Assembly: GCF_003013715.1 (NCBI RefSeq)
Contig: NC_072815.1
Coordinates: 1,054,001 to 1,118,000, forward strand
Origin: Candidozyma auris
Taxonomy: Eukaryota > Ascomycota > Pichiomycetes > Serinales > Metschnikowiaceae
Direction of reading: 5' to 3'
Length of the DNA stretch: 64,000 nucleotides
The position numbers and the translations under genes are program-made. The notes below the pieces were generated by a model. The model had not been told where the DNA came from. It was given only the letters and a program-made list of their open reading frames with translations, and ran no database searches. Positions 430 through 20,915 of the stretch are shown here, one piece after another. Numbering within the stretch: the first letter of the stretch is position 1; every line of letters starts with the position of its first letter.

Positions 430-1818
430 ATGGAGGACATTGAAACAAAGCCGCTACTATCAGTATCATCTTCTGTGGTCCATGGATATGTGGGAAACAG
501 AAGCATTGTGTTCCCTCTTCAGACGCTTGGATGGGATGTGGATGCTATCAACACCACTGACTTCCTGAATCATCCCGGCTACGGCAAATTCAAGGGACGC
601 AAAGTTGAGCCTGAGAGACTAGAAGAGCTTTTTGACGGACTCAAGGACATTCAGGCGGACCAGTACAAGATGATGTTGGTGGGCTACTGCCCTACGTCCG
701 ATCTGTTGGAAGTCATCTACAATCACATTGAGCAATTGAAGTCGGCTAACCCTGAGTCGGTGGTGGTGGTGGACCCTGTTCTTGGAGACAACGGTAAGCT
801 CTACGTTTCAGCAGAATGCGTGCCCGTACATAAGAGGTTTTGGAGGAAAGGGCTTGTTGATTTGGCCACACCCAATCAGTTCGAGTTGGAGCTTCTCACT
901 GGCATGAAGGTCGATAGTTGGCAAGCCGCTGCCCAAGCTCTTCGCATGGTTGATGCTTTATACGACGTTCCCAACGTTGTACTCCTGTCGGTGGTAATCA
1001 ATGGCGTCATGGCCGCTGTGGGGTACTCTCGTGAGTCGTATTTCTCCACTGAGGAACCTCTCAAGGAAAATAATCGCCCTAACACGAAGGATAGCCCGTC
1101 TTCCAAGGAATATACTCCACCCAAGAAGAATGCTTCACCTCTTCCTGAGGAGGATGGAACCTCCTTACCCAAGGAAAAGGAAGCCTCCTTACCCAAAGAG
1201 GACATGGGTAAGAAGGACCCAGGGTGTCTTAAAAAACCCATGAATGCGTACATTTTCTTTTGTATGGATCGGAGAAGGGCAAACCCCGATGTGAGATACA
1301 GTGCAAACATGTTAGGTGAAATGTGGAAAGCTGCCAGCCATGAAGAAATGAAGCCATTTGAGAAATTGGCCGCTGCTGACAGACATAGGTATTATAAGGC
1401 AAAAACTGAATGCCTGGGTGTATCTATAGTGGAGATTGACGAGATTGGCTGTTCCTTCAACGGGTGTGGAGATGTCTTCTCCGCCTTGTTGGCTCACGAG
1501 TTCTACGAGAACGACAAGAAGCTCACTGGAGAAGTGATTTCTTCTGTGATGGCCAAAATGAGCAAAATTCTTCGCATCAGCTACGAGTTGGAGAAGAGGA
1601 AGACAGGTAAGGAGCCTACCCACGTAAGGGACATTGCCCTTGTTGCCCTGCGCCATGTATTTACTGAGAGAGACGTCGGTGCCGAAAATGCACAACCCGA
1701 CATACACTCTTTCAAAATCAAATTGGAATCTGGCTTGGATGAAGAGCTAGCCGATGCTGTGAAAAGCGAAGAGATTTTGAAGGGCGTTGCTGGGATCAAA
1801 TTAGAACCCTCCGCCTGA
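430..1818 (+). CDS. BUD16: Pyridoxal kinase (BUD16 type) with an internal HMG box
   Basis: Pyridoxal kinase phosphorylates pyridoxal, pyridoxine and pyridoxamine with ATP in the vitamin B6 salvage pathway. Family motifs are visible: HGYVGNRS near the N terminus, DPVLGDNG at 115-122, TPNQFELELLTG at 147-158 and the anion-hole/catalytic segment NGCGD at 344-348 (usually GTGD; Cys replaces Thr, Asp348 is kept). The protein has 462 aa; the family is typically about 300. The extra length is one block between about residues 205 and 328. It holds a charged Pro/Lys/Glu linker with an 8-codon repeat, then a clear HMG box at 268-327 (KKPMNAYIFFCMDRRRANP, followed by GEMWKA and a basic third helix ending YYKAKTE). 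The kinase fold resumes at CLGVSIVEIDEIG. The insert sits in the loop just before the GxGD helix, which in this fold covers ATP. The frame is open throughout and the ATG at 430 precedes the first motif. Whether the kinase remains active is unknown. Confidence 0.85.
   Translation: MEDIETKPLLSVSSSVVHGYVGNRSIVFPLQTLGWDVDAINTTDFLNHPGYGKFKGRKVEPERLEELFDGLKDIQADQYKMMLVGYCPTSDLLEVIYNHIEQLKSANPESVVVVDPVLGDNGKLYVSAECVPVHKRFWRKGLVDLATPNQFELELLTGMKVDSWQAAAQALRMVDALYDVPNVVLLSVVINGVMAAVGYSRESYFSTEEPLKENNRPNTKDSPSSKEYTPPKKNASPLPEEDGTSLPKEKEASLPKEDMGKKDPGCLKKPMNAYIFFCMDRRRANPDVRYSANMLGEMWKAASHEEMKPFEKLAAADRHRYYKAKTECLGVSIVEIDEIGCSFNGCGDVFSALLAHEFYENDKKLTGEVISSVMAKMSKILRISYELEKRKTGKEPTHVRDIALVALRHVFTERDVGAENAQPDIHSFKIKLESGLDEELADAVKSEEILKGVAGIKLEPSA
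1160..1207 (+). repeat. 24-nt tandem repeat in the BUD16 insert
   Basis: The 13-mer cctccttacccaa occurs at 1160-1172 and again at 1184-1196, 24 nt apart. It encodes two copies of an 8-residue unit of the form (T/A)SLPKE(K/D). It lies in the linker just before the HMG box. Confidence 0.8.
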
Positions 1819-1833: not shown

Positions 1834-2083
1834 GGTTCCATTCAAATACTGACATTGTGAGAATTTTAAAGGGTTCTAGATTAAATAAACATTTCAACGG
1901 TGGAAATCGATCGTGAATCGATCTGAAAAAATATCTTCACTTTACTCTGGTATGTCCATTTCTCCGAATTTTCTCTCTCTGCAACTCTTAAGTTACTATC
2001 TTCCTCCACCTTTAAGTGTGACTTCCATGTGCACTCCGATAAGATCAAACCCAACTTCTACTCTCTCCCTTATCACCACAAGA

Positions 2084-3790
2084 ATGTTAGAGAAACAACC
2101 ACTACGCCAGCGGAACACTCAAAAGACTTATGTGTTCCTTATTTTTTCGTCATTATTTGCCTTATCCATCTATAGCATCGTGCAAGCATGGGTTCCCTTT
2201 TGGATTTTGGGACCCAAGATAGATCAACAGTCAGAGCCACCTTCTACACACCTGGCTTCACTGGGCCGGTCAACCAAGTTTCAACTAAAACATGTTTTTC
2301 ACCACGGAACAGGAAGGTACAACCGTGTACATCGTCGTTTAGACATCACTCCTGAGTTCTTAAGCACGCATGAGAACACCCTTGAGGAGCTCACGGAGGC
2401 GATTTACGCCCAGGGAAATGAGCACGTAGATTCAAATAGCGCCGACTCCGTCATGTCTCAGGTAGGCATATCTCGAGCTTTCGGGGGCCAAAATCCATGG
2501 AGTGCCGAATTAGAGATTCGTTCTTCGGAGAGACCAGCTCGGTTGAGGAGGCTCAAAGAACGACACACACCGGGGTTTCTAGATAGCTACTTACGGTATG
2601 CGATAGAGGTCAAAGGAGACCCAAAAAAGCTAGATGGCATAGGGCTTGAATGGGAGCCCGAAGAGGACGTTTTGTTGCCTGACATCGAAGACAAGGACTC
2701 CGTGGTAGCCCTTGCCCTCATCTCATCAAATGCATATGTGAGGCTACCCTTGAGCGATGACGAGAAGAAGAAGCTGGACTGGATCGATGTGGGCGATCCT
2801 TGGGATGTAGATGAGGAACACCCAGATATCAATTTTGGGTGGCTCGAGGACGGGCTTCGAGGGCACGTTTTCGTTAGTAACGACTCCAAGACCGTCGTGA
2901 TTGGCATTAAAGGCACGTCTGGTGCTGGTCTTCCAGGAGGTGGGTCTGACGAAACAGGCGGAAACGATAAGATCAACGACAATTTGCTCTTCCTGTGCTG
3001 TTGCGCTAGGGTAGGCTACATGTGGACCACAGTGTGTGACTGCTACGAGAAGACATACACATGTAACCAGGATTGTCTTGAGAAGGAGCTTTTGAGACAG
3101 GATAGATACTACCAGGCTACGTTGGAATTGTACAGAAATGTGACGAAGTTGTACCCTCCAGAAACTACTGATATATGGGTGACGGGCCACTCGCTTGGAG
3201 GGGCGCTAGCATCGCTTCTTGGTAGGACTTACGGCTTGCCTGCTGTTGCATTTGAGTCGCCAGGAGAGATGCTTGCAACCAAAAGACTACATCTACCTCA
3301 AGCTCCAGGGCTTCCTCGGCACATGGAGCACATTTGGCATTTTGGGAACACTGCCGATCCGATCTTCATGGGAGTGTGCAACGGCGCCTCATCCTCATGC
3401 TCCGTGGCGGGTTATGCCATGGAGACCGCCTGCCATACGGGCAAAATATGTGTCTACGACGTGGTGACCGACTTGGGGTGGCACGTGAACTTGTTGAATC
3501 ATCGTATCCACACGGTGATTGACGACATCATTCTCAAGTACAACGAAACAGCCAAATGCGTGGACCAGCCGCCATGTCGAGACTGCTTCAATTGGCGGTT
3601 TGTCAGTAAAGATGACACAGAACCCGACGAGCCCAAGTTGCCTCATCCACTCAAGTCCAAGCCAAGTAGCCTGAGTGTAGCGAAGCCTACGAGCACATCT
3701 TCAAGCAAACCTACAGAAACAGACAAGCCCAAGAGGTGTTTGGAGAGAACATGGTACGGATGGTGTAAGAAGTGGGAGGGCGAAGAGTAA
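2084..3790 (+). CDS. ATG15: Vacuolar/MVB lipase Atg15
   Basis: Atg15 is the lipase that breaks down autophagic and Cvt body membranes inside the vacuole, reaching it through the multivesicular body pathway. From the ATG at 2084 the protein is 568 aa, with one N-terminal membrane segment (about residues 15-33, YVFLIFSSLFALSIYSIV) acting as a signal anchor. The class-3 lipase nucleophile elbow is VTGHSLGG, with Ser370. A cysteine-rich stretch (about 300-330) and a Ser/Thr/Lys-rich C-terminal tail follow family architecture. The open frame extends upstream to 1913 but begins with GTG. ATGs at 1952 and 2027 are alternative starts; I chose 2084 because it places the anchor near the N terminus as in relatives. 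Confidence 0.88.
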   Translation: MLEKQPLRQRNTQKTYVFLIFSSLFALSIYSIVQAWVPFWILGPKIDQQSEPPSTHLASLGRSTKFQLKHVFHHGTGRYNRVHRRLDITPEFLSTHENTLEELTEAIYAQGNEHVDSNSADSVMSQVGISRAFGGQNPWSAELEIRSSERPARLRRLKERHTPGFLDSYLRYAIEVKGDPKKLDGIGLEWEPEEDVLLPDIEDKDSVVALALISSNAYVRLPLSDDEKKKLDWIDVGDPWDVDEEHPDINFGWLEDGLRGHVFVSNDSKTVVIGIKGTSGAGLPGGGSDETGGNDKINDNLLFLCCCARVGYMWTTVCDCYEKTYTCNQDCLEKELLRQDRYYQATLELYRNVTKLYPPETTDIWVTGHSLGGALASLLGRTYGLPAVAFESPGEMLATKRLHLPQAPGLPRHMEHIWHFGNTADPIFMGVCNGASSSCSVAGYAMETACHTGKICVYDVVTDLGWHVNLLNHRIHTVIDDIILKYNETAKCVDQPPCRDCFNWRFVSKDDTEPDEPKLPHPLKSKPSSLSVAKPTSTSSSKPTETDKPKRCLERTWYGWCKKWEGEE

Positions 3791-5063: not shown

Positions 5064-5888
5064 ATGCTCAGAGCTAGCGGCACTTTCGTCAACCTCTTTT
5101 TGTTAGCCGGTACCACCCTTTTGTTGATCTTTATTGTCTTGGCTGGCTCCGTCAACCATTTCCCATTCAACAGATTCGAATGGCTTAGAGCCGATACTTC
5201 TCAAATTGAGGGTGCTTACGGCGAGTCCAAGTGGTTTTTCTGGGGTGTTTGTGATGCAAGCAACCTTTCCAATTGTATGACCGGTCCTGCCTACCCAATC
5301 TCTCCTAACAGGAACTTTGGCACTGAGCAAGGTGTCCCAAGCGATTTCATCAACGATGACTCCACCTTCTTCTACTTGTCGAGATTTGCCTTTGCTTTCC
5401 TCATCATTGGTTTTATCTTCACTGCTCTTGCCTTCATTGTCGACATGGCTGGCTTCTGCTTTGACTTCATTGAGAGAATTGTTATCATTTTGGTCACCCT
5501 AGCTCTCTTCTTTATTGCTGGCTTTGCTGCTTTCCAGACCTCCGTGGCTGTGTTGGCAAGAAACGCTTTTAAGGACGAGAACTTGAGTGCCAAGCTTGGT
5601 GTCAAGGGTTTCGCTATAATGTGGACGGCAGTGGCTTGTTTAGCTATCATTTGGTTCATCACTTGTGCCAACAACATTGCCACCTCCTACAAGAAGCACA
5701 TTGAAAATGTCCGCGGTAGCGAAGGAGGCTACTACCCTCAGGGTCCACAGGACGGCGGCGAGCTCGCTGACGACTCCTCATTCACCAGATCGGTGCCTGT
5801 GGAGAAGGACGCCAACGCTGGCAGCGGTGGTATCCGTTTTTTCAGAATCAAGAGAAACCAGAAGCCCTCCGATGAAGAGAGCGTTTAA
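5064..5888 (+). CDS. SUR7: Sur7/eisosome family tetraspan membrane protein
   Basis: Sur7-family proteins mark MCC/eisosome furrows of the plasma membrane and affect endocytosis, wall organisation and sphingolipid balance. The 274-aa product has four predicted membrane spans (about 8-28, 106-126, 137-156, 183-203). The first external loop carries the family signature region W-x-x-G-x-C (WGVC, Cys63) with a second Cys at 71 (NLSNC). The C-terminal tail is cytosolic, rich in Gly, Asp and Ser. The ATG at 5064 is in good context (CAAAATG), followed directly by span 1. Orthology to SUR7 rather than the paralogue FMP45 is an inference from the first 70 residues. Confidence 0.82.
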   Translation: MLRASGTFVNLFLLAGTTLLLIFIVLAGSVNHFPFNRFEWLRADTSQIEGAYGESKWFFWGVCDASNLSNCMTGPAYPISPNRNFGTEQGVPSDFINDDSTFFYLSRFAFAFLIIGFIFTALAFIVDMAGFCFDFIERIVIILVTLALFFIAGFAAFQTSVAVLARNAFKDENLSAKLGVKGFAIMWTAVACLAIIWFITCANNIATSYKKHIENVRGSEGGYYPQGPQDGGELADDSSFTRSVPVEKDANAGSGGIRFFRIKRNQKPSDEESV

Positions 5889-13187: not shown

Positions 13188-16100
13188 ATGCACTCGCTTG
13201 TTCACTGGGCCGGCGTTGCAGCGTGTTTGTGGGTTGCTGGCTGGCTTCTAGTGTACTGGCTCACGGGGAGCTGGTTGGGCTACATTAGCATCAATAACGG
13301 GGTATCGTTTAATCATGTTTGTTTGAAGCTGAGCAGACTCAAAGTTTACGCTGGCTCCGTACGGTTCCGTCTATGGGGGAACTCAAAACGGATGATAATC
13401 ACAGACTTGCGGGTGGAAATTCTCCCGAACCAAGATAACGGTAAGACGAAAAGGACGACTCTGCAGTCGAAAGGTAGTCCACTTGACAGCTCAGAGCCAA
13501 TTTCGATTTTTCCAAGGAGATTTCACTGGTTCTTTAGATTTCTTCTATGGCACTTCCCCACAGTCGACGTGGAGCTCAAGCTGTCGCAATTGGTGCTTTC
13601 ACGAGACTTAGTGGAACTCGAGAGGGCTCATTTGGTCTTAAAAAAGCAGACAAACGCTCACAGGAAGAAATCTTTGTATCTTGCGCTCGACGTGGCTTGC
13701 CAAAACATCTTGTCGTCGCCGCAGCTGGCTGCCTCAAAGGTGCCTCCGTTATCCATAGGAACGATCAATGTCCAGGCTAAAACAACCGTGAGTCCTTCAG
13801 ACGGGGTGGTCAACGATACGATAGTTCAGCTATTTTTGGACAATCTGGAGGTTGGAGCGTTTCAGATCCTCAGACACCTCTTCCAAGAGGACAAGGAGGA
13901 TGCACCTTCGCCGGCTACTGAATCCAAAGCCATCTCCAGAGAACAGCAGCTTCAAAAGTCAGTGGATAAGCTCACGCGTATCCATCAAAGGATCTCTCTG
14001 ACGTTCAAGGAGGTCTCTTTCAATATCAGCAACTCTCGCATATTAGGGATCCCATGTATCCCCACTTCTTCTACGTGTGATTTGGAAGAATACTTCTCTC
14101 ATGTTGATCCATCGCTATCTTTCACTATATCAGTGAAATCCTTGGCTGTCCAGGCTTCCCATCTAGCTAATACCGCTGCAGGATTCATGGCCCTTTTTAA
14201 TAACAAACTCGACAGGCCTATTCATTTGACCACATCTGCTGTACTTTTACAGATGTTTTTTGTTACGAGAAAATTTGATGAAACTACAAAGCTGTGGCAC
14301 TCCGATGTCGACGAGTTCCTCAACATACCTAATCTAGGGTTCTCCCTCAAGACTAACTTCCTCGATCACTTGGCAAAAGGATACGGATTCAAAGACTGTA
14401 CGATGGAGCTCTACTCCTCCGTTAGCAATCCTGTCTTAGACCTCAGCGTCAGTCAGATAGCCTTGCTTTCATATAATCGTATCTTGGCACAGAAGGTGAT
14501 GATTCTTCGGAAGCTCGCCAAAACACAACACCAGAGAACTCCTTCTGTCGGCACTCCACCTGGGGATGATCTTGACGACCAATCTCGTTCCAACTCTGAC
14601 TCCAGTCCTGAGACCCCTGTGGCTCACAGATTTGACACTCCTTACGACTCGACTAAGCACCCACCCACCACTCTTTTGGATAAGGCTGTCAGCCTACTTA
14701 ATGAATACTACCCCCAGATTGGCATAAAGATCACAGTTGAACAGCCACAGTATGTTATTCGTCTGGATGGCGAGCAAGTCAAGTTGGTAGACATCTCTTA
14801 TTCATTAATGTATTTTCATTTGCTTACAACAGCAAAGAACGATTACGATGCCAACTGCCATGTGCTTCATCCGTGTCTTAAGTTCTCTAGAAAGGTTGAT
14901 ATTCCTAGAGCTGATGAAAATCCACGTATAAGCGAAGAAGTGATTGGGTGTAATAATGCAGAGCTCAGGTTCCACGTTTTAAAGAACCTTCGTCTAAAAG
15001 TTTCAGGTTTAGTCGAGAATACCTTCGTCAACCTAGGTAAACCTGACGTGCTTAATGGACTCAATGAAATTATCACTAGTGTGACGAAGATCACATTCTT
15101 GAACTTACGCAATGGTTCGGTTAATCAGTTTTTAAATAATCGTCTAGTCGAAAATTTTGGGAGTGAGCCTTCAAAGAAGTCACATCGATCCAAGAATGAC
15201 AAGCGTTTTACAATGAGCAAATTCTACAGAACCTTGCCATCTTGGTTCGTATCTGCGAAGTTCGAAGTAAATGGTCTTCAAGCAGTGCTTGGGTCTACTT
15301 CACCACTTTTACCTCCAGAGCTCATTGCTGAATTATCAAAGAAGTCTACAGCTTTCATGACCGACTCAGAGCAACTAATCGAGCTAAAGATTCTCCATCA
15401 CCACATGGAGATCATCAACGAAGATGTCTCACTCATGAAAAATCGTCACGAATATAGTAGCTCAGAATCACTGGAGACACTTGCCCTTTCTACTGAGGGC
15501 TCTCTATTTTGGAAGGTACTGGCGGGCCTCAGAGGGCTCTCCCTTCATGCAAAGAAAAAGGCTACCAGAAGTTCCCCTTTGCTCACGGTTAATGAGTTTG
15601 GTGCATCGATTGCCGCTTTGAGACTTGATGAGGGGAACGAAATGATTGTTGATTCTAAGATTGACGAAATTGGAGGCTCAGTCGATAGAAAGAAAGTATT
15701 CACGATTCTTGGGCTGATACATTTAATTTTACAGACCATTGTCTTTCCGGTGAAAGAGATAAAAGCTGAAATAAGGAAGGACTTGGAACAATTCCAGAGG
15801 CATGAAAGGAGAGGAAGTTTTGTGGAGGAAGGTGGAGTTGTGAGATTCCAATTCAGTCTCGGCAAAATCAATTATCTTGCCAAGCTTTCAGACGAGTTCA
15901 AACTTCGTTTACAGGCATTTGGCGCAAACTTTACATCCAGAAACAATGTCTTTGATTCGAACGTTAACTTCATTCGTCTTTTGGCAGATTCGCCTCATCA
16001 CAAGAATTTGTGGTGCAGACTTGCATGCGTTGACTCCATCACCATCAAGCTTAATGACCCACAGGAAGATGAGAATATCATGATTTATTCATCTCATGTA

Positions 16101-19100
16101 CGCTTCTTCCAACCGAATTCATTTGTTGTTTATAAGCTTTTCGATAATATCTCTATCTTCATGAAGATTATCAAGCACCTTGTGAAATGCCTTAACTCGG
16201 AAAAGAAGAGTACAGTTGTATTCCCTACTGAGTCTCCTCCACTCAAGGTGCCAAATGTGAGATTCTGTGCAACAAATTTGACATACCTTATGGAAGACGA
16301 TCCTTTTGAAGTTGAGCTTGGCTTGCAATTTCAATTGGGCTTGGTTGAGCAGAGAAAGCGAATGGACATGCTTTCTGCTTTAGAAGAGAAAGTCAAGCAA
16401 ATGAAGTTGACGGAAGAAGAATTTGATCAAGCTCTTTGCCGAGTACGTTCTACGATTTCCGATCTGTGGATCAGGAAAGTCAGGGCTTACAAAGACTCCT
16501 TGACCAGGGAAATTGAGGAAAACAACAGGTATATTGTTGGCAATGAGCTTGATATCCCAGAGAGTGATAATGACAGAATCGTTGGGTATCCCTTCGTTCC
16601 ACCACTATTGAAAATTGTGATGTCAGACCTTGATATCCTCATAAAGTCTCCAGAATTCCCAATCTCGGAAATCTCCCAATATATCCATGATGTCGGTCAA
16701 GGTGTTCCCAAAGACACGAAATACAACCTCATGCTTCCAACTTACATCGATATGCACGTCAACGAGTTGAGAATGCACCTTAGAGACTATCCTCTTCCCT
16801 TGCTCCATTTGCCTAGAGCGTTGGATGCTAAAGGAAGAGGAAGAGCTTTAATGATGAAGGGTCATCTTGTCATTGGCGAAGCACTCTGCCTCGAAAAGGA
16901 ACATTTGAGGCAAATGGAGGTTCAGTTGAGCGATCCTTCGAGTGACTTGAACAATGATCTTCACAAGTATGACCATCTCACCATCAACAAATCCTTGAGT
17001 TCTGTGAAGATCTATACCGATATGGACGTCCAATTTGACTCGAATGGTCCCTGTCGTTTTGTTTGGGGTCAAGCTTACCAGTTTGGCATTCAACAAGTTA
17101 TGTTGAACTTCGACTCGTTTTCTAAACCTCCTGTGGACCCGTCAAATAAACTTGGTTTCTGGGATAAGTTGCGTATGCTTCTTCATGGGAAATTTTCAAT
17201 TCGAGCACAAGGATCCACTCAAGTCGAGGTTGCATTTAAGGGTGGAAGAGACCCGTACGATCTCTTCCCTCAGTCTGCTGGGTTTATTCTCTCTTTCAAG
17301 GATGAAGTGATTTGGAGAATCAATCATCATGACGACTCCTTGAGATTCTTCGATATCCTGGCCAAGACAGTTTCTTGGTATGTGCCAAATTACTTAGCTG
17401 CTCCCTTAATGTCATGGACAAGGGACAGCTCGAAGTCTATTTTTCTCCCCGATTTCCACCAAATGATCAATACGGTGCATGGTTATTATTTGTTGAGAAC
17501 CCGTAGCCATCCAACTTCCGAGGATGCTGAAAACCCTAACATTAATATTGAAGAGAAGATGGCAATCCAGTTGAGCGGTGGAATTCGGTATGTCGTCGGT
17601 TTTCTCCTACAAAGGCAGTCTTCTGATGGAGGAGTGACAAATGACTGTGTTCCCCACTATGATATTGTACCGTTCAATCCAGAATACACTTCTGAAGACC
17701 ACGATACGTATAAGTATTTCAGAAGTATTAAGCTACATATGACCATGTCGTTGGCTGCACATACAGATGACAGTTATAACACAATTCATTTGAGTCCTGG
17801 AACATTTAACATATTCTTCAAGTGGTGGAGCATGTTCCAAGGTAACATGATGCTCCCGATCAGAAAGGGAATTGTCTTTGGCGAAAAGAAGGCAAGCCCG
17901 AAGTTCTCTCAGCACTTATTTCTGAATAAGTTTTTGTTCAATGTCAGAAATTTATTCATCAGTCACATTTATCGTGGTGACTACTTTGATCAGGACGAGG
18001 ATTACGTTGAGTGTTTTGGTCTAAGAGCTCGCGTCAAAGACTTCACCGTTGATTTGCATCAGGAAAAAGAGGAACGTATCTCATTACACAAGTCTTCTGG
18101 TAAAGAAATCAAAGCTTTGAAAATGATTATGAAGCTAGGCGAAGTTAGTCTATCTGAGATCGATATGCGTCTGATGCATGCAAAGATCTTTAAGGATGTC
18201 TATCACCCAGGCCTGAAGAAGCATGGGCACTGCAAGGTCAAGATTTTTGACAATAACCGCCAGTGGTTCGATCCTAGAGACTTCCATGAGGCCTTCATTT
18301 CAAAAAGAGTAGAAACATTCAAGCTCGTTGAAGTTCACCCAATGGCATACTCTGAAAGGTTTTCATACATTAAGGATACTACCAATATATCACCAGGACG
18401 GAAAGATGAATCAGATAGAACTCATGACTGCAAGTTAAACATGCAAGACATCCACAGCCCACAGATCAATGTGCTCAAGCGAAGGCTTGCTGATTTGGAG
18501 CTGGTAAGTCCGCGAGATAGAGACAGTGACATCAAAAGAAGAATCAGTGCTTTGAAGGTTTTCATCAGGAAAGTCAACGAAGAAAAAGAGCATACGAGCA
18601 GACGACAGAGTGTTCAAGAAAACGTTAAGAAGAAAGAACATTTTCAGAACCGTTTTATTGTGACCTCAATGCTTTTTAAATGGAACGTGAAGATTCGAGA
18701 CATTTTCATCAAGTACTTATTATTCGCCCAGATGAAAGCCAAATCACGCAAGTTGCTTTCGTATGAGTTTGTCAGCATGTTGGAGAAAATTGTCAATAAC
18801 GAAGACGGCCGCTCGGACCGATTCTCCATAGTTTCGTCATCCGTTGGCGGGGAATCAGTGAGAGATAGGAAACTCAGTCAGACACTGATGGGTGTTGGTA
18901 GCTCCCAAGAACGCTTAGACAATTTTGATGCTATCCTAAGAGATGTCGCAGGCGATGAGAAGATAGCAGAAGATTACAAGATCGAGGTCATTGGTGTGCA
19001 AATTCAGTTCCATACAGAAGAGGTCATGGACACTGTTTCAATCTTATCGGCACCATTGTTAGAACTGAAGATACTCTCAGTTCTTCCTAAGAGTGATAAT

Positions 19101-20915
19101 CCTTTGGTCATAAATACCACAGTTCCTGAAAGGAGGCACGGTGTCTTGCTTCACGAAGCAAGTGTGTCTGTGCTCGAGAGGAAAGACGTGGAGCATGGAC
19201 ATAGCATATTGGAGGCAAATCCCTACGGCAGTATCTCCAACTGGCCACCTTGGCTTGGTGCAGAGACTTGCAAGGACAGTTCACTCATTAATAAGACGTT
19301 CTTGCCAATTGAGCGAATGTCGGTGATGATTACATACGATAAGGTCATGTCAGTCAACGAGGATAAGTCTGAGGACGAAATCGAAAGAAATGCTGATGAC
19401 AAAACTTTGGAAGAGCAGGCAGACTCCTCGCAAAATAAGCTTCGCGTGGATATACCGAAGGTGATGATCACATCTACTTCGAAGCAGTATCTTGCACTTT
19501 ACGCTACTGCTCTTAACTTGTTTCACTACTCCGACCCACTCACAAGTCAACTCAAAGAAAAGCTTTCGAAACTCAATTTCCAAACGGAGTTCGAAGACTA
19601 TCATGCAATGCACCAACGTTTGGTGAATCTACATTGTTATCTGATGACGCTCGGAACTTTATTAAGGGGCTACGGTTACAGACACGAGTATCTAGAGAAT
19701 GAGGAGCTCAACCAGTTCCTATTCCTCAATTCTGAGCTGGACGATACAATTAACGAAATTATGTTCACGGTGGAAGCGTTGCTTATGCGGGATGCCTTCA
19801 ATGACTCGTCCAGACAGACCGTCGCTGATTGGATTATCGGTACGGACGAGATTGTTCTTCACATGTTACAAGATGACAAGCAACCGATTTTGGACCTAAG
19901 AATTGAGGGCGGGACGTGTAAGAGAGTGTTGATGGATGACAATTCGAACGACAACAGAGTGCAGATCAAGAACATTCAGGGTAACAACTTGGTGAGGGGT
20001 GCGCCGTACAAACGATTTGTTGAGCCAGTGTATCCACCCGATGAAGATGATCTCATCACTGTCGATTGGTCAATGCAAAAGCCTATTGGTGGGATCAAGA
20101 TAATTGAGAACTTTGAGATCAAATCTAGGCCGTTGAAAATTAGAGTTGACGAGGTGACTGGAAGACAATTGATGCAATTTATCTTCCAGACAGACAAAGA
20201 GAGTGAGATAGAGAAGAGTACTTTGATCAAGATGAATAATGACTTGAAGAACAAGGACGACAAGGATGAGAAAGAAGACGATGAAGCGAACAAAGAAAAC
20301 AACGAGGACATTGACGACGACGCACTATCAGAGCAGGCGTCTCTCACGAGTACGACTGCCATTTCAGAGAAAGATACGAGGCTTGCTGTCTCACGAACAA
20401 AGACCAAAACAGTCAAAAAGAAAAGTTCTATGAAAGAGTCATCATTTTCTAGCGGAGATATGGGAGACTTTGAAGAAGACGTTGGCAAGATGATTGAAAG
20501 ATCAAAAAAGTATTTTAGTGTTACTAATATGAACTTTCAGCCCTTTGAAGTGATGATATCTTTGAAGCTCAAACGAGGATTTAGAAGATTGTTGAACGTA
20601 ACCGACTTCACTTTGCAGCTTCCGGGCTTTCACGTTGAAAAGGAGCTCTTGTCGATGTTGGACGTTGTGGAGATGATGAAATCAATGTTGATCAAATCAC
20701 TCTTTTCACATAGTGGTCAGCTCTTGAAGAACATGATGAAGACCAGTCGGCACAATCGCAAAAAAGACCGTTATTTGCGCAAAGAAGCTGAACGGATTCA
20801 AACTCAAACAAAGGACGGGACACACGTCTCCGGGTACCAAATTCAAGACAATCTGGGTTCAGATATCCCCTACAAAACTACTGAGGAACTTGTGCAAGGC
20901 CAAGTGAGGGCGTGA
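13188..20915 (+). CDS. FMP27: Bridge-like lipid transfer protein Fmp27/Hobbit
   Basis: Fmp27 (Hobbit family, metazoan BLTP2) is a very long repeating-beta-groove protein thought to carry bulk lipid between membranes at ER-plasma membrane contacts. The 2575-aa product starts with an N-terminal ER anchor (about residues 12-32, CLWVAGWLLVYWLTGSWLGY). It is followed by beta-rich sequence and the family GFWDK motif at 1323-1327. The C-terminal third includes conserved FVEPVYPPDEDDLITVDW and a Lys/Asp/Glu-rich low-complexity region (about 2345-2390) before the final Apt1-like part. The family is usually about 2500-2600 aa, so this looks complete. The ATG at 13188 is the first in frame and directly precedes the anchor. 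Confidence 0.93.
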   Translation: MHSLVHWAGVAACLWVAGWLLVYWLTGSWLGYISINNGVSFNHVCLKLSRLKVYAGSVRFRLWGNSKRMIITDLRVEILPNQDNGKTKRTTLQSKGSPLDSSEPISIFPRRFHWFFRFLLWHFPTVDVELKLSQLVLSRDLVELERAHLVLKKQTNAHRKKSLYLALDVACQNILSSPQLAASKVPPLSIGTINVQAKTTVSPSDGVVNDTIVQLFLDNLEVGAFQILRHLFQEDKEDAPSPATESKAISREQQLQKSVDKLTRIHQRISLTFKEVSFNISNSRILGIPCIPTSSTCDLEEYFSHVDPSLSFTISVKSLAVQASHLANTAAGFMALFNNKLDRPIHLTTSAVLLQMFFVTRKFDETTKLWHSDVDEFLNIPNLGFSLKTNFLDHLAKGYGFKDCTMELYSSVSNPVLDLSVSQIALLSYNRILAQKVMILRKLAKTQHQRTPSVGTPPGDDLDDQSRSNSDSSPETPVAHRFDTPYDSTKHPPTTLLDKAVSLLNEYYPQIGIKITVEQPQYVIRLDGEQVKLVDISYSLMYFHLLTTAKNDYDANCHVLHPCLKFSRKVDIPRADENPRISEEVIGCNNAELRFHVLKNLRLKVSGLVENTFVNLGKPDVLNGLNEIITSVTKITFLNLRNGSVNQFLNNRLVENFGSEPSKKSHRSKNDKRFTMSKFYRTLPSWFVSAKFEVNGLQAVLGSTSPLLPPELIAELSKKSTAFMTDSEQLIELKILHHHMEIINEDVSLMKNRHEYSSSESLETLALSTEGSLFWKVLAGLRGLSLHAKKKATRSSPLLTVNEFGASIAALRLDEGNEMIVDSKIDEIGGSVDRKKVFTILGLIHLILQTIVFPVKEIKAEIRKDLEQFQRHERRGSFVEEGGVVRFQFSLGKINYLAKLSDEFKLRLQAFGANFTSRNNVFDSNVNFIRLLADSPHHKNLWCRLACVDSITIKLNDPQEDENIMIYSSHVRFFQPNSFVVYKLFDNISIFMKIIKHLVKCLNSEKKSTVVFPTESPPLKVPNVRFCATNLTYLMEDDPFEVELGLQFQLGLVEQRKRMDMLSALEEKVKQMKLTEEEFDQALCRVRSTISDLWIRKVRAYKDSLTREIEENNRYIVGNELDIPESDNDRIVGYPFVPPLLKIVMSDLDILIKSPEFPISEISQYIHDVGQGVPKDTKYNLMLPTYIDMHVNELRMHLRDYPLPLLHLPRALDAKGRGRALMMKGHLVIGEALCLEKEHLRQMEVQLSDPSSDLNNDLHKYDHLTINKSLSSVKIYTDMDVQFDSNGPCRFVWGQAYQFGIQQVMLNFDSFSKPPVDPSNKLGFWDKLRMLLHGKFSIRAQGSTQVEVAFKGGRDPYDLFPQSAGFILSFKDEVIWRINHHDDSLRFFDILAKTVSWYVPNYLAAPLMSWTRDSSKSIFLPDFHQMINTVHGYYLLRTRSHPTSEDAENPNINIEEKMAIQLSGGIRYVVGFLLQRQSSDGGVTNDCVPHYDIVPFNPEYTSEDHDTYKYFRSIKLHMTMSLAAHTDDSYNTIHLSPGTFNIFFKWWSMFQGNMMLPIRKGIVFGEKKASPKFSQHLFLNKFLFNVRNLFISHIYRGDYFDQDEDYVECFGLRARVKDFTVDLHQEKEERISLHKSSGKEIKALKMIMKLGEVSLSEIDMRLMHAKIFKDVYHPGLKKHGHCKVKIFDNNRQWFDPRDFHEAFISKRVETFKLVEVHPMAYSERFSYIKDTTNISPGRKDESDRTHDCKLNMQDIHSPQINVLKRRLADLELVSPRDRDSDIKRRISALKVFIRKVNEEKEHTSRRQSVQENVKKKEHFQNRFIVTSMLFKWNVKIRDIFIKYLLFAQMKAKSRKLLSYEFVSMLEKIVNNEDGRSDRFSIVSSSVGGESVRDRKLSQTLMGVGSSQERLDNFDAILRDVAGDEKIAEDYKIEVIGVQIQFHTEEVMDTVSILSAPLLELKILSVLPKSDNPLVINTTVPERRHGVLLHEASVSVLERKDVEHGHSILEANPYGSISNWPPWLGAETCKDSSLINKTFLPIERMSVMITYDKVMSVNEDKSEDEIERNADDKTLEEQADSSQNKLRVDIPKVMITSTSKQYLALYATALNLFHYSDPLTSQLKEKLSKLNFQTEFEDYHAMHQRLVNLHCYLMTLGTLLRGYGYRHEYLENEELNQFLFLNSELDDTINEIMFTVEALLMRDAFNDSSRQTVADWIIGTDEIVLHMLQDDKQPILDLRIEGGTCKRVLMDDNSNDNRVQIKNIQGNNLVRGAPYKRFVEPVYPPDEDDLITVDWSMQKPIGGIKIIENFEIKSRPLKIRVDEVTGRQLMQFIFQTDKESEIEKSTLIKMNNDLKNKDDKDEKEDDEANKENNEDIDDDALSEQASLTSTTAISEKDTRLAVSRTKTKTVKKKSSMKESSFSSGDMGDFEEDVGKMIERSKKYFSVTNMNFQPFEVMISLKLKRGFRRLLNVTDFTLQLPGFHVEKELLSMLDVVEMMKSMLIKSLFSHSGQLLKNMMKTSRHNRKKDRYLRKEAERIQTQTKDGTHVSGYQIQDNLGSDIPYKTTEELVQGQVRA

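Follow-up and report, generated by a model that had tools for sequence, protein, structure and literature searches.

A single open reading frame (ORF) that encodes a Bud17-type kinase with an HMG box nested inside it was found in a 64,000-nucleotide stretch of the Candidozyma auris genome (contig NC_072815.1, forward-strand positions 1,054,001 to 1,118,000; the whole stretch is called the window here). The ORF, at positions 430 to 1818 of the plus strand, is present in the sequence and gives 462 residues under the CTG=Ser code (yeast table 12). An original prediction had proposed that an HMG box is embedded within a pyridoxal kinase in this frame, in a CTG-clade yeast. The clade was correct, and both parts were recovered: Pfam HMG_box matched residues 268 to 326, and TIGR00687, the NCBIfam pyridoxal kinase model, scored 169 bits (cut-off, 144.5). 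The reading that we favor, with a probability of about one-half, is that an NHP6-like box was inserted into a BUD17-type gene, that the kinase is likely still active, and that the box would bind DNA and tether the enzyme to chromatin.

The window gene belongs to the Bud17 branch

The PF08543 profile stayed slightly below its gathering score (26.4 versus 27) and aligned only with residues 62 to 189, before the insert; the insert-free homologs P0001 and P0004 passed it. In a PDB sequence search, kinase chains matched residues 9 to 186 (best chain, E of 5.6e-43), and the match continued weakly at residues 334 to 394, which was not significant alone. A protein search with residues 1 to 200 gave 365 homologs at an E of ≤0.001, and the 120 listed were fetched. 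The closest among the matches listed were from Candidozyma haemuli (69%, 304 amino acids) and C. duobushaemuli (63%, 295 amino acids), and several other homologs among them carried the name BUD17. The start of the ORF is supported by the similar N terminus of the orthologs (MEDIETKPLLSVSS in the window gene and MENIDTKSLLSVSS in P0004). At site 13, 57 of the 120 homologs have Leu where others have Ser or Gln, probably because the source translated CTG codons by the standard code.

A tree of the kinase part was built from 55 rows: 53 of the 120 homologs, the window row with the insert removed, and the genome's own paralog. The window row was sister to five homolog sequences, and this set of six had a support of 100/100. 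The paralog, an insert-free ORF of 321 amino acids at C1:624250, grouped with a Bud16 row. Two genes of this kinase family were found in the genome, one of the Bud17 type (in the window) and one of the Bud16 type. Because it grouped with Bud17, apart from the Bud16-type paralog, the window gene is by phylogeny the BUD17 ortholog.

Kinase signatures were complete on both sides of the insert. D348 in the GCGD motif corresponds to Asp235 of human PDXK, whose role is described in PMC3412620. Among 57 near-invariant columns, the window kinase departed at one, and 78 of the 122 rows (window row included) departed at none or one. A full-length structure model was built with 114 of the 120 homologs; the window kinase has a complete ribokinase-like fold and the box a three-helix L-shaped fold, and the models suggest that the two fold independently.

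The residue at the position of the ligand-contacting Thr47 of human PDXK is Pro (residue 49, positions 574 to 576). Pro was found there in 109 of the 120 homologs as well as in the window kinase (Bud17 type), and Thr was found in 11 (Bud16 type). Since insert-free relatives share it, the Pro does not reflect decay; it appears to be a subfamily mark, and it calls the pyridoxal kinase label into question. The predicted identity held for the family (TIGR00687) but was weakened at the level of the enzyme by the Pro of the Bud17 branch and by the separate Bud16-type kinase in the genome. For Bud17, "pyridoxal kinase" is a putative label, and the making of pyridoxal 5'-phosphate is a putative activity. 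The available part of PMC12299217 deals with Bud16 only.

The insert is specific to the window gene and contains an NHP6-like box

Compared with the orthologs, the insert covers about 125 residues (approximately residues 203 to 330), the size originally predicted. Its predicted location, the loop preceding GxGD, was correct and could be narrowed to the loop ahead of the strand leading to GCGD. Between the GYS strand and DEIG, the window gene has 139 residues, versus a median of 15 (range, 11 to 46) in 121 other rows (the 120 homologs and the Bud16-type paralog). None of these rows filled more than 10 of the 110 insert columns, and no relative carrying the HMG insert was found among the 120 homologs examined. 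The site is tolerant of length, as loops of 29 to 46 residues are found there in P0080, P0081, P0086, and P0087. A protein database search with residues 255 to 335 gave one candidate and none at an E of ≤0.001, a weak negative because the method needs shared five-letter words. An insert in a relative could conceivably have been taken for an intron when the source proteins were predicted. A DNA search of the genome matched only the insert itself, with no second copy, and a recent NHP6 duplication or a mobile copy was rejected as the source. Based on the tree, gain of the insert on the window's lineage would be the simplest history.

The linker that opens the insert is, judging from the model, probably disordered from about residue 222. 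An exact 13-base repeat in it was found by a script, while tandem-repeat tools found nothing, and this repeat suggests that the linker may have grown by small duplications. The suggested placement of the box over the active site was not confirmed: about 50 low-confidence residues on its N-terminal side could let the box move.

The match to PF00505 (HMG_box), a domain that in other proteins binds and bends DNA, reached 37.3 bits (gathering score, 25.4; E of 3.9e-9). PF09011 (HMG_box_2) was just below its gathering score (21.2 versus 22.4), and the box was thus filed under PF00505. In the PDB sequence search, NHP6A matched residues 259 to 325 (E of 5.9e-10). The hydrophobic wedge positions and the basic flank are retained. 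The box is shortened, with about six residues missing, and its PF00505 score is low beside those of the other HMG boxes in the genome. NHP6 is nearest to it in sequence, and this best match suggests that the box derived from an NHP6-type gene. The comparison with the NHP6/HMGB and SOX/ROX1 classes gave a mixed picture, because PMNAY carries an Asn typical of the sequence-specific HMG class.

The coding score was best in the gene's own frame for both the linker (0.365 bits per codon) and the box (0.168 bits per codon), the mean of 16 ORFs being 0.229; one reverse frame of the linker was also positive (0.181). In an alignment of 70 codons with NHP6, of which the final few lie past the box, differences at codon positions 1, 2, and 3 were 0.29, 0.40, and 0.63, respectively. 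In neutral simulations, which assign all change to the insert's branch, 0 of 2000 runs retained a protein identity as high as the 43% observed when DNA identity was 56%, and 95.65% contained a stop. At the sequence level, the results showed constraint on the HMG lineage since its split from NHP6, possibly only before capture.

Other features of the gene and its neighbors

The C-terminal tail is mostly absent from 17 aligned homologs. Its three psi-K-x-E motifs are IKLE, VKSE, and IKLE, and when the tail was shuffled 20000 times, 4 shuffles had as many as three, with the motif picked after looking. Such a tail would fit a nuclear life, a match that was noticed after the fact. The features of the gene are listed in Table 1. 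The neighbors in the window are a class 3 lipase (1952 to 3790), which we take to be Atg15-like, a SUR7/PalI family protein (5064 to 5888), and a giant protein of the Hobbit/FMP27 family (13188 to 20915).

Table 1. Features of the kinase-HMG gene, with positions in the window (pLDDT, predicted local distance difference test)
Feature	Position	Strand	Evidence
Whole gene, Bud17-type kinase of 462 amino acids with nested HMG box	430..1818	+	ORF (table 12), Pfam, TIGR00687, tree
Kinase part 1, residues 1-203	430..1038	+	Ortholog alignment; residues 1-200 at pLDDT 87-98 in blocks of ten
TPNQFE motif, residues 147-152	868..885	+	Columns N149 and E152 invariant in 120/120 homologs
GTGAGT hexamer at 5' edge of insert, splice-donor-like; in-frame acceptors restore no normal loop	1031..1036	+	Script and pair scan
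Pro/Lys/Glu-rich linker, residues 204-258	1039..1203	+	pLDDT <50 at 222-270
Exact 13-base repeat, starts 1160 and 1184, encoding repeated SLPKE	1160..1196	+	Script
HMG box plus basic N-terminal flank resembling that of NHP6, residues 259-326 (268-326 in Pfam)	1204..1407	+	Pfam, PDB search, models
Kinase part 2, residues 331-410, restarting at second hairpin strand	1420..1659	+	Alignment; residues 331-410 at pLDDT 95-98 in each block
GCGD catalytic motif, residues 345-348	1462..1473	+	Both G and D invariant in 120/120 homologs
C-terminal tail, residues 411-462, psi-K-x-E (SUMO-consensus-like) at 430, 444, and 456	1660..1815	+	Alignment, script

Alternative explanations

The main rival is that the insert is a neutral passenger, an HMG-coding fragment lodged in a tolerant loop of the second kinase copy, in which case a protein would be produced and perhaps folded, with no DNA role in the cell for the box. 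We regard this as a serious possibility, although not the expected one. It fits with an insertion site that holds 11 to 46 residues elsewhere, with the second kinase of the family in the genome, with the lack of the insert in the 120 homologs examined, and with a shortened box whose PF00505 score is weak relative to the other boxes of the genome; the terminal branch of the window row was also somewhat long (0.45 versus a median of 0.32 in the 55-row tree). However, the wedge positions and the basic flank are preserved, the frame is open, and both the codon-position bias and the simulation favor constraint on the HMG lineage. This constraint may date only from before capture.

It is very improbable that the block is absent from the mature protein, either as an in-frame intron or as the product of an assembly join. 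The 5' edge of the insert, at position 1031, coincides with a perfect GTGAGT, and the four donor-like hexamers together occurred 17 times in the 29,100 coding bases of the window, about 1 per 1700; this GTGAGT could be a relic of capture. In-frame GT-AG pairs are nevertheless common in the region, with 64 pairs of 60 bases or more found between positions 985 and 1475 that keep the frame open and retain both flanks; of these, the best 25 and the 12 that had a loop of 9 to 46 residues and a donor match of at least 3 were looked at. The pair 1031-1429 is in frame (399 bases), but its product would have a loop of 6 residues, shorter than in all 121 other rows, and would lose the second hairpin strand. 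The pair 1038-1388 would give a 22-residue loop, within the range of the relatives, but its donor is GTATTT, and the branch-like A stands only 9 bases before the AG. An intron of 59 or 64 bases ending after CCCTAAC near 1079, considered by hand, would shift the frame. No TACTAAC was found in the window gene, and the nearest branch-like site ahead of the 1429 and 1388 acceptors is TGCTGAC. By comparison, the frame of the genome's NHP6 (L001, G000:C4:745480-748683) is directly preceded by TACTAACAAACAG, a canonical TACTAAC...CAG acceptor, which suggests that an intron interrupts NHP6 close to the start. The linker and the box also code best in the gene's frame, in which the HMG box reads. The two outcomes that would have spoken against the original prediction were not encountered: the pair scan gave no credible intron removing the block, and the absence of a second insert copy from the genome DNA search does not point to joined genes.

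Slighter still is the chance that the product now serves chiefly in DNA binding or regulation, its kinase fold being dead or nonmetabolic, for although the Bud16-type enzyme could cover vitamin B6 salvage, the Bud17 rows have Pro at the Thr47 position, and a tail is present that the 17 aligned homologs lack, GCGD is retained, the single departure at near-invariant columns is no more than in most rows, and the Pro is common to insert-free relatives and hence not a sign of decay.

A possible chromatin-tethered kinase and its comparison with known systems

We therefore return to the tethered kinase as the preferred reading. An NHP6-like box would have entered a BUD17-type gene in the loop just before GCGD, a site that probably tolerates it because the loop already varies in length between yeasts, and the second kinase copy would have made an insertion less risky. 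The product likely keeps its predicted kinase activity despite the insert. On its long, flexible linker, the HMG box would act as an arm that binds DNA without strong sequence preference, and the DNA-bound box would tether the enzyme to chromatin. A more elaborate version seems unlikely to us: in one yeast lineage the box docks, the gained tail with its three SUMO-consensus-like motifs helps to hold the kinase on chromatin, and DNA binding gates the kinase, as the box hangs on a hairpin beside the ATP-binding loop, so that local cofactor production would depend on chromatin.

If the box binds DNA, the gene would offer a case in which the move of a cofactor-type kinase to chromatin could be tested, and this would connect with the link between pyridoxal kinase and genome integrity reported in PMC3961173 and PMC6775053. 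Each part is already known, and the fusion has so far been found in one genome; no title or abstract start, the portions covered by the literature search, describes a combination of pyridoxal kinase and HMG box. A DNA-binding domain nested in an enzyme of metabolic type, with no damage to that enzyme in evidence, would represent a natural domain insertion on one branch, and the insert-free sisters allow a comparison with the window gene.

Domain fusions usually occur at protein ends. Chromatin enzymes such as NSD2, KMT2C/D, and PMS1 have an enzyme and an HMG box in one chain, with the box as one of several domains and not nested in a small-molecule kinase fold. Another pyridoxal kinase with much added sequence is that of Plasmodium falciparum (PdxK, 6su9; 497 amino acids). 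Its residues 313 to 374 match residues 110 to 176 of the window kinase, which puts its added sequence nearer the N terminus. The box resembles those of NHP6 and HMGB (1cg7 and HMGB1 box B) in the KKDP flank, AYxFF in helix 1, LGExWKA in helix 2, and AAAD or AxAD plus RY in helix 3. NHP6, however, is a small standalone protein, whereas the window box is nested in an enzyme, is about six residues shorter, and has the Asn in PMNAY. The closest system is Saccharomycotina Bud17, a putative pyridoxal kinase (P0001 of C. haemuli and P0063, Diutina Bud17), which has the tree position, GxGD, the HPGYG pocket, and the N terminus in common with the window gene; the 120 homologs examined have the short loop and no HMG box, whereas the window gene has the long loop and a C-terminal tail.
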